Source of the DNA: Lachnospiraceae bacterium 10-1
Lineage (GTDB): Bacteria; Bacillota; Clostridia; Lachnospirales; Lachnospiraceae
DNA: 47,479 nucleotides
Reading direction: 5' to 3'
Assembly (NCBI GenBank): GCA_000403495.2
Contig: KE159800.1
Location: 1 to 47,479, forward strand
Shown here in pieces: positions 39,127 to 41,375 of the stretch. The notes beneath the pieces are model-generated. The model was not told the origin of the DNA. It made no database searches and saw only the letters and a list, made by a program, of their open reading frames with translations. A program made the translations under genes and the position numbers. Position 1 is the first letter of the stretch. Every line of letters begins with the position of its first letter.

Positions 39127-39151
39127 CTGTTATAGCTAATCCTCTATTAAT
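39111..39151. terminator. 18-bp perfect palindrome over both stop codons (bidirectional hairpin)
   Basis: Arms 39111-39128 and 39134-39151 are exact reverse complements with loop gttat. The left arm holds the exoA stop (39124-39126) and the right arm holds the PII-like gene stop (39136-39138). As a result both proteins end in LIED. There is no T tract on either side, so it may stop transcription weakly or protect mRNA 3' ends. Confidence 0.75.
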
Positions 39152-39813
39152 CTAAGACCTGCTGTATCTGTAACCGGAAGAGAAAATACAATAGATTTTG
39201 CCCGACTGTCCATACCTGCTTTTTCCATAATTGCACCCATGATTGCATTCTTTTGTTCTTTTTTAGTAACAATAAATATCATTTCTTTATCTGCTGCAAT
39301 GGACACTCCCATGAACTTTTCGGCTATTTCCATTCCGGTTCCTCTTGCATGAATCACCGTACCGCCATATGCTCCCGCTTCCCGTGCGGCATTCATAATT
39401 AAATCTATATTTCCCTGATTTGCAATTACAATAATAAGTTCATGTACCGTATCCTTCAAGGTTGATTCCTCCTCTTTCTGATATTCTTTACCTTCTAAAA
39501 GAAACTGTAATACTTTTTTTCCACCAATACTGCTTAAAGGAATTATAAAAGCAATTCCTCCGCCGGGAGCATCAATCTTTAATTTTTGTTGAAGCCTTTT
39601 CTTTATAAAGTACCATTCTTCTTCTTCGTGTATGGAAAACAAAACAAGCTTTTCTGCACCCTCCAAACCAAAATAATCCAGTATATCGCTGCTTGCAGTA
39701 CCTTTTCCCAAGCTTGCAAACATTACATGCTGCTCATTTTCCTTATAAAGCTCCTGATATTTTTTTCCTATTTTTCTGTCAACAATCGTTGTCATTAAAT
39801 ATAATTTACCCAT
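39136..39813 (-). CDS. Tandem PII-like (GlnB superfamily) protein
   Basis: A 225-residue protein with two ferredoxin-like PII-type halves. Half 1 (about 1-110) ends APGGGIAFIIPLSSIGG; half 2 (about 120-225) has LIMNAAREAGAYGGTVIHARGTG, KEMIFIVTKKEQKNAIMGAI and SIVFSLPVTDTAGL, the standard PII order including the GTVIHARGTG turn before the T-loop region. Half 1 is more diverged. PII proteins sense nucleotides and metabolites and gate transporters. The gene follows the DUF1538 membrane protein by 14 bases, so it probably regulates that protein. Which ligand binds is unknown. Confidence 0.8.
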   Translation of the reverse strand: MGKLYLMTTIVDRKIGKKYQELYKENEQHVMFASLGKGTASSDILDYFGLEGAEKLVLFSIHEEEEWYFIKKRLQQKLKIDAPGGGIAFIIPLSSIGGKKVLQFLLEGKEYQKEEESTLKDTVHELIIVIANQGNIDLIMNAAREAGAYGGTVIHARGTGMEIAEKFMGVSIAADKEMIFIVTKKEQKNAIMGAIMEKAGMDSRAKSIVFSLPVTDTAGLRLIED

Positions 39814-39827
39814 ATGTCATCCCATTT

Positions 39828-41375
39828 CTATAATTCGATAATTTCCATATCTCCATATGCTTCCAGTGGTGTATAATCTTCTCTTCCGGATGCTTTTTTT
39901 CTGAGACTGCTTTCCTTAAATCTATAAACCATACCCATTGTCTGAATGGTAATAAGCGGCGTCATGGCAACCATTGCAATAATTCCAAAAGCGTCTGTAA
40001 TGATGGTTCCTCCCAACGCTGCACATGCACCCATTGCAAATGGAAGAAGAAAAGTAGCAGTCATAGGACCAGATGCCACACCACCCGAGTCAAAAGCAAT
40101 TGCTGTAAATATTTTTGGCACAAAAAAGGTTAAAATTAATGCAATTGCATAACCAGGTAAAATAAACCACAAAATAGAAATACCGGTAAGCACCCGCACC
40201 ATAGATAATCCTACTGATACGGATACACCAATTGACAGACTAAGCCCCATTGCTCTGGCAGAAATGGCTCCTGAAGTTATTTCTTCTACCTGCTTTGTAA
40301 GGACAAATACCGCCGGTTCCGCCAAAACAATAAAATAACCGATTACCATACCAATGGGAACAATAATCCATCCATAAGAAAGTGCTGCTATGGTCTGCCC
40401 TAAGTAATTTCCGGCCGGCATAAACCCAACGTTGACACCTGTAAGAAATAGCACCAGACCTACATATGTATATACCAGGCCAATACCTATTTTAATCAAT
40501 GCTTTTTTACTGATATTTCTTGCAATAATTTGAAAAACACCAAATACCAAAATAATTGGAAGAAGAGAAATTGCCATTTCCTTTATGTAAGTAGGAATTT
40601 CTTTTGAAAATAATCTCCAAAGATCAACTGTATTATCAACAATTTTTATACTGTCAGAAACATATTCTCCCTGTCCCGGATGAAAGACCATTCCAAGAAT
40701 TAAAACTGCAAGAATAGGACCTATGGAACAAAGTGAAACCAGGCCAAAACTGTCATCTGCCGCATGTTTATCACTTCGTATCGCAGTAATACCAATACCA
40801 AAAGCCATAATAAAAGGCACTGTCATCGGACCTGTAGTTACACCACCGGAATCAAATGAAATAGAAAGAAAATCTTTTGGCACAAAAAAAGTAAGAATAA
40901 ATACAAGTACATAAAAAAACACAAGTAAATGAGATAAAGCAATCCCAAATAACATACGAAGTAATGCAACAACCAGGAAAACTCCCACTCCAACTGCCAC
41001 TGCCAAAATTAGAACCACATTAGGCACTGAAGGAACCTGCTGTGCTAAAACCTGAAGATCTGGCTCTGAAACAGTTATAATAACCCCCATTACAAAGCTT
41101 ATTAAAATCATTATTGGAAGATTTTTGGACTTTGTCATAATCGTTCCAACTCTCTCTCCCATAGAAGTCATTGACATATTTACACCAATATTAAAAAGCA
41201 GCATTCCCAATATCAGCAAAACTGCTCCCACTAAAAATGTCATTAATATACTGGGAGGAATAGGCGCAATTGTAAAACACAATAGCAAAACAATTGCAAG
41301 AATAGGAAAAACTGCTTTTAGAGTTTCATATAAACTTTCTTTGATTTTAGATCTGCTTACCTGCAAAAATATCAA
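39828..41375 (-). CDS. DUF1538 membrane protein with two homologous halves
   Basis: A 515-residue polytopic membrane protein. Three motifs occur twice: GVN near residues 63 and 313, a membrane-level EP (SEPDLQVLAQQV near 103; AEPAVFVLTKQV near 352), and FFVPKxF..I.FDSGGV..GPMT at about 163-185 and 417-439. This layout suggests an internal duplication forming a pseudo-symmetric transporter or channel. Substrate unknown. Start is uncertain: the frame begins TTG at 41375 with AAGGG only a few bases upstream, and no ATG follows soon. Co-transcribed with the PII-like gene. Confidence 0.8.
   Translation of the reverse strand: MIFLQVSRSKIKESLYETLKAVFPILAIVLLLCFTIAPIPPSILMTFLVGAVLLILGMLLFNIGVNMSMTSMGERVGTIMTKSKNLPIMILISFVMGVIITVSEPDLQVLAQQVPSVPNVVLILAVAVGVGVFLVVALLRMLFGIALSHLLVFFYVLVFILTFFVPKDFLSISFDSGGVTTGPMTVPFIMAFGIGITAIRSDKHAADDSFGLVSLCSIGPILAVLILGMVFHPGQGEYVSDSIKIVDNTVDLWRLFSKEIPTYIKEMAISLLPIILVFGVFQIIARNISKKALIKIGIGLVYTYVGLVLFLTGVNVGFMPAGNYLGQTIAALSYGWIIVPIGMVIGYFIVLAEPAVFVLTKQVEEITSGAISARAMGLSLSIGVSVSVGLSMVRVLTGISILWFILPGYAIALILTFFVPKIFTAIAFDSGGVASGPMTATFLLPFAMGACAALGGTIITDAFGIIAMVAMTPLITIQTMGMVYRFKESSLRKKASGREDYTPLEAYGDMEIIEL

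Follow-up and report, generated by a model that had tools for sequence, protein, structure and literature searches.

PII proteins are widespread signal proteins, and the canonical ones (GlnB and GlnK) are homotrimers. GlnK and AmtB are encoded by a conserved gene pair, in which the T-loop of the PII protein plugs the ammonium channel. Known transporter targets of PII are few, namely AmtB, Amt1, NrtABCD, UrtABCDE and SbtA, and the relevant part of a review describes PII-gated transporters as trimers and PII control as restricted to trimeric ones (PMC10710835). As outlined in sections of two papers, SbtB is a PII-like protein acting on a Na+-dependent bicarbonate transporter, SbtA, which is trimeric (PMC10710835, PMC10117731).

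A pair of DUF1538 membrane proteins, UmpAB of Halomonas zhaodongensis, has been described as a heterodimeric Na+(Li+,K+)/H+ antiporter, and umpA and umpB subcloned alone were active in E. coli (PMC5484666, in part), so a PII protein is dispensable for UmpAB activity there. In these partial accounts UmpAB is a dimer, in contrast to the trimeric transporters known to be gated by PII (PMC5484666, PMC10710835). The available UmpAB text contains no occurrence of PII; since the cloned fragment has no listed open reading frame after umpB, a PII gene located further on may have gone unseen (PMC5484666). The original prediction for this locus held that DUF1538 had no assigned substrate, which in light of UmpAB was wrong. 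No paper among the open-licence matches listed joins DUF1538 or UmpAB with PII, although this does not prove absence in print.

Pairing of DUF1538 and PII genes across genomes

The window, a stretch of 47,479 nucleotides from Lachnospiraceae bacterium 10-1, encodes on its minus strand a fused double-DUF1538 membrane protein of 515 residues with a TTG start (39828..41375) and, 14 bases downstream (spacer 39814..39827), a tandem PII-family protein of 225 residues (39136..39813). The two open reading frames, their common strand and their spacing are as originally predicted. The locus shares with UmpAB the Pfam family, two homologous units and conserved acids, but differs in that its units lie in one chain and are followed by a PII gene, of which the UmpAB text, as far as available, makes no mention (PMC5484666). 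More generally, DUF1538 and a PII-family gene make up a conserved, near-obligate module.

PII adjoins DUF1538 in 210 of the 217 loci surveyed, the remaining seven stopping at a sequence edge. After removal of three copies of the locus in the window and of three duplicates, the first set comprised 179 loci; in 174 of these PII adjoins DUF1538 on the same strand, and the other five reach a contig edge no more than 127 bases past DUF1538. Loci were drawn from a sample of the class, with at least one from each of 88 genomes (L003-L031, L120-L176 and L178-L182), so that further loci within a genome may be missing; from the best 80 of at least 566 confirmed named-genome matches (L032-L111), which lean towards close relatives and among which the nearest loci, at 81-82% identity in the best segment, belong to Lachnospiraceae or uncultured bacteria; and from all 16 plasmid and phage records matched (L112-L119 and L260-L267). 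The two genome collections may share some species, which would then be counted twice. A phylum search found DUF1538 in 101 of 299 genomes, and among its 30 best-scoring loci PII is adjacent in 29, with one ending at the contig end; the last eight plasmid and phage records have PII in seven, with one stopping inside DUF1538. Four loci that hold both genes and were found via PII (L190, L191, L192 and L194) stand outside the count of 210 in 217.

Across 243 genomes of the class, both genes occur in 86, DUF1538 only in two, this special type of PII only in two, and neither in 153 (Fisher 7e-61, for species that are not independent). Each gene is thus found in 88 of the 243 genomes, the threshold of the PII-type profile search being E ≤ 1e-12. 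Both DUF1538-only genomes (G137 and G170) are contig-edge cases; the PII-only genomes are G154 and G241, and an orphan single PII gene is present in G124. The original prediction had staked itself on co-occurrence across genomes, and these counts uphold the pairing. When NhaC antiporter loci of the class were taken as a control, the special PII was beside none of 30 (about 1.5 kb per side). Two further comparison families were rare among 118 genomes, SbtA (PF05982) occurring in one and NhaA (PF06965) in none. DUF1538 and PII therefore form a conserved gene pair, as expected of a PII-gated transporter. Their divergence is correlated as well (r 0.88 over 132 loci, reached by 0 of 1000 permutations), but we give this little weight because shared ancestry alone could yield such a value.

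Seven phage records were matched: four are faecal and labelled 'Bacteriophage sp.', and three come from wastewater and bear the name Listeria phage. DUF1538 and PII occur together in six of them, and the seventh stops within DUF1538. In two wastewater records named as Listeria phage (L118 and L266) DUF1538 is followed by PII, L118 carrying a whole DUF1538-DUF1538-PII operon. Two scans of viral contigs returned no relatives, and the phage-labelled records look like stray bacterial DNA.

A riboswitch and RNA scan of the window returned two tRNAs and nothing 5' of DUF1538, and thus no riboswitch pointer to the substrate; in a riboswitch scan of nine of the 80 named-genome loci there was one T-box (L104), on the strand opposite DUF1538. 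Counts from a promoter and terminator scan were not above those in shuffles.

Gene architectures and DUF1538-PII fusions

The pairing takes several forms. One DUF1538 gene accompanies one PII gene in L124, L147, L160, L165, L174 and L191, and a DUF1538 pair accompanies one PII gene in L198, L202, L212, L221, L224 and alphaproteobacterial plasmids (Chelativorans, Methylocystis), the plasmid genes following the order DUF1538-DUF1538-PII and either overlapping by 4 bases or lying 5 bases apart. Both the DUF1538 pair and the fused DUF1538 gene also occur with two PII genes or a tandem PII, the window having the fused gene with the tandem form. In the Chelativorans plasmid (L112:2546-3094, plus strand) the first DUF1538 gene is shortened, with an open frame of 182 residues of which 90 are annotated, and PII is of the usual length.

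A PII domain is fused to the C-terminus of fused DUF1538 in seven loci (L142, L153, L155, L156, L157, L169 and L175), which form one clade with support 1.0. A separate fusion of PII to the same end of DUF1538, in L190, is nested among unfused relatives, again with support 1.0; the fusion arose in two independent lineages. The fused domains of the seven loci match the PII profile built here at E 2.5e-18 to 2.6e-25, and the call depends on this profile because Pfam P-II falls below its cut-off on all three of these proteins that were scanned (L169 at E 0.022, L153 and L156 with no match). All five of the seven fusion loci that have upstream sequence carry a tandem PII gene just upstream, while the other two start near a contig edge. 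The seven-locus clade thus has three PII domains per locus, and three is the domain number of a PII trimer; the count is not general, however, since L190 supplies only two. A rule whereby gene content fixes PII stoichiometry was considered and dropped, as one, two and three PII domains per locus all occur.

The genome of Lachnospiraceae bacterium 10-1 itself has a gene for an ammonium transporter with a canonical PII domain in the same chain (L226:2475-3995, minus strand; G000:C21), and the covalent joining of transporter and PII is therefore a design in use.

Because fusions occurred in two lineages, the DUF1538-PII link is probably physical, and we consider it very probable that PII is a dedicated partner in this physical sense. 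Neighbouring genes commonly share a promoter, and the two genes could be merely co-transcribed, with PII serving an unrelated cytosolic target; that reading is highly improbable given that the pairing holds across split, fused, single-gene and plasmid-borne forms in two phyla and that PII has been fused to DUF1538 twice. A second alternative accepts PII as a dedicated partner, but casts the membrane protein mainly as a sensor or anchor that captures PII and releases it to signal elsewhere, as has also been discussed for AmtB and GlnK. Two genomes have tandem PII genes without DUF1538, which suggests that PII may act without the transporter; covalent DUF1538-PII fusions, however, cannot let the fused PII domain go, and we regard capture and release as improbable. 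That PII instead regulates the activity of a transporter, as originally predicted, draws strong support from gene order, genome co-occurrence and the two independent fusions, and we consider such regulation likely.

The DUF1538 protein and its cargo

PF07556 matches the membrane protein over two stretches, the whole protein scoring 462.4 bits against a cut-off of 22.6 (E 1.9e-139), with 237.1 bits for repeat 1 (40686..41303, minus strand) and 238.3 bits for repeat 2 (39927..40556, minus strand). The two halves align to each other with 30% identity over 223 columns (E 5.6e-41, a single hhalign comparison). Three motifs, GVN, EP and FDSGGV, had been proposed to recur in each half, of which the latter two are highly conserved in the aligned rows. 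The EP motif (minus strand; E104 and P105 at 41061..41066 in repeat 1, E353 and P354 at 40314..40319 in repeat 2) is invariant in 126 of 126 aligned rows in both repeats, and the aspartate of FDSGGV (minus strand; 40839..40856 and 40077..40094) is retained in 120 of 126 rows at D175 and in all 126 at D429. By contrast, the first-half GVN is peculiar to the window protein: at that position 120 of 126 rows have D or E and only two, the window among them, have N, whereas the second-half position is N in 116 of 126.

Seven helices per half can be read from the hydropathy of the 126-row alignment, and UmpA and UmpB were published, in the part of the report available, as having seven helices each (PMC5484666). 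Charge bias was calculated as the K+R count in alternate loops, with loop limits set from the hydropathy profile, for 31 of the 126 fused rows (the window and 30 random draws) and for 25 split pairs, from which L112 and L199 were excluded for their shortened first genes. In the fused proteins, first halves have a bias of +8.7 (positive in 31/31) and second halves of -5.9 (negative in 31/31), repeat 2 of the window being inverted in the membrane by this measure. The split pairs gave +5.5 for first genes and -6.4 for second genes, 25 of 25 each way, and six single-gene forms gave +1.7 (range -1 to 4).

DUF606 and SMR, which are separate families from DUF1538, likewise comprise single, paired and fused antiparallel membrane proteins, and we know of no PII partner for either. 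Their bias, as given in part of a published analysis, is near 0 for single genes and about +/-6 for paired ones (PMC3962082), and the two DUF1538 units have the opposite biases of such antiparallel duplicated transporters. Because of this shared pattern, the two DUF1538 halves most probably insert in antiparallel fashion, which would put both termini of the fused protein on the cytosolic side, the expected location of a fused PII domain. The opposite bias backs the pseudo-symmetric transporter of the original prediction, and the series of single, paired and fused DUF1538 genes is a clear case of inverted-repeat evolution. The fused protein ends in a hydrophilic C-terminal tail terminating in IIEL (39831..39920, minus strand), and 47 of the 126 aligned rows finish in a similar way, IIEL- or IIDL-like. 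Other lineages carry a fused PII domain downstream of this same end of the membrane part, and the tail is a possible docking site for PII.

By analogy with UmpAB, we lean slightly towards a monovalent cation as the substrate of the window protein. The window protein scores 165.8 of 490 bits and 141.1 of 500 bits with the UmpA and UmpB equivalog models (NF041627 and NF041628), and because these scores are far below the cut-offs its substrate may differ from that of UmpAB. A PII-gated transporter of some other cargo, such as an anion, ammonium or a metabolite, would fit the shortfall against the UmpA model, and the sole functional study found concerns, in the part available, a halophile pair (PMC5484666). 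Against other cargo, the acids of the EP and FDSGG motifs vary little or not at all in either half, which fits cation exchange. Profile comparison with one SbtA sequence revealed no similarity (hhalign probability 0.4%, E 0.14), and a Pfam scan of 23 DUF1538 members gave nothing better than E 0.13 other than DUF1538 itself, with no match to Amt. On this evidence we consider other cargo rather unlikely. A search with the 126-row profile found no solved relative of DUF1538 at E ≤ 1, and the single sequence gave one at E 0.34.

The PII partner and its possible signal

The original prediction described the partner as a tandem PII protein with a diverged first half, and a profile-profile match bears this out. 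Domain 2 (residues 120-222; 39148..39456, minus strand) aligns to solved PII proteins and is recognized by PF00543 (residues 126-221, 38.1 bits against a cut-off of 25, E 2.1e-9). The diverged domain 1 (residues 1-110; 39484..39813, minus strand) has no P-II Pfam match of its own, but matches domain 2 with a probability of 99.5% and E 8e-23 in a single hhalign comparison.

Ligand positions were read in 117 rows by alignment to the Amt-PII protein of the same genome, which itself has K at R101. In canonical numbering, we take K90, R101 and R103 to be ATP ligands, Q39 to be a 2-oxoglutarate ligand and Tyr51 to be the T-loop residue that is uridylylated. The K90 position is I or V in 104 of 117 rows, R101 is G in 109 and Q39 is E in 65; R103 is retained as R in 54, including the window, and the K58 position as K in 107. 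Most canonical ATP and 2-oxoglutarate ligands are thus lost from the PII partner, which in this respect departs from canonical GlnB and GlnK. The T-loop is five residues shorter than that of the genome's own Amt-PII, and the window protein has no tyrosine there. With the ligand residues replaced and the T-loop shortened, canonical MgATP and 2-oxoglutarate sensing and uridylylation are unlikely.

The PII domains might instead have lost all binding of small ligands and act as fixed, purely structural components, as the replacement of K90 by I or V and of R101 by G and the shortened T-loop would allow. However, the base of the T-loop is kept and nearby residues are strongly conserved over the 117 rows (G150 and T152 in 117, G151 in 111, G160 in 108 and K176 in 107, with B-loop glycines in many), which suggests a retained pocket, and a purely structural role seems quite improbable. 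A ligand other than MgATP and 2-oxoglutarate is suggested by the extensive loss of the residues for these two. SbtB, whose reported ligands include AMP, cAMP and c-di-AMP as well as ATP and ADP (PMC10117731), offers a functional precedent.

The locus resembles GlnK-AmtB in having a dedicated PII gene adjoining a transporter, and in the existence of PII-transporter fusions, but here PII is tandem and lacks the tyrosine of the T-loop tip and most ATP and 2-oxoglutarate ligands. It resembles SbtB-SbtA in combining a non-canonical PII-like partner with a Na+-linked transporter. PII-regulated transporters are a known kind; the transporter family and the type of PII are new.

On balance, we propose that the pair is a PII-regulated secondary transporter, probably a monovalent cation/H+ antiporter of the UmpAB type that is gated by the tandem PII. 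The computed basis comprises near-obligate pairing, fusion, inverted-repeat charge bias and loss of ligand residues. In the proposed mechanism, two halves of putatively seven helices each would be inserted antiparallel and would place their conserved acids (E104/E353 and D175/D429) close to the ion path. As a dedicated cytosolic subunit, the tandem PII is predicted to dock close to the C-terminus on the cytoplasmic side, and would open or block transport depending on a small ligand, probably of adenine type rather than MgATP or 2-oxoglutarate. If this is so, the fused PII domain and the tandem gene of the seven-locus clade could together give rise to an obligate heterotrimer that docks on a single antiparallel transporter. 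More tentatively, such pairs may represent widespread, undescribed PII-gated monovalent cation/H+ antiporters in which the homeostasis of cations and pH is coupled to a non-canonical signal of adenine type. In anaerobes, a PII protein dedicated to a cation/H+ antiporter would make the homeostasis of ions and pH depend on nucleotide state. To our knowledge, PII control of a cation/H+ antiporter, or of a non-trimeric transporter, has no earlier example, and this would be the first. A PII-gated DUF1538 protein would thus test the trimer-only view of PII control expressed in part of the review (PMC10710835), and the natural DUF1538-PII fusion proteins are material for structural work.

Special PII genes, tandem or single, were also seen in three stretches that hold no DUF1538 (L186, L187 and L193), the one in L187 near a molybdate-type ABC transporter operon. 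In a further stretch (L189:2853-3680, plus strand), two tandem PII-like open reading frames, matching the PII profile built here at E 5.3e-9 and 7.8e-19, directly precede an apparent ZIP-type metal transporter gene, possibly another pair of a PII-like protein and a transporter.
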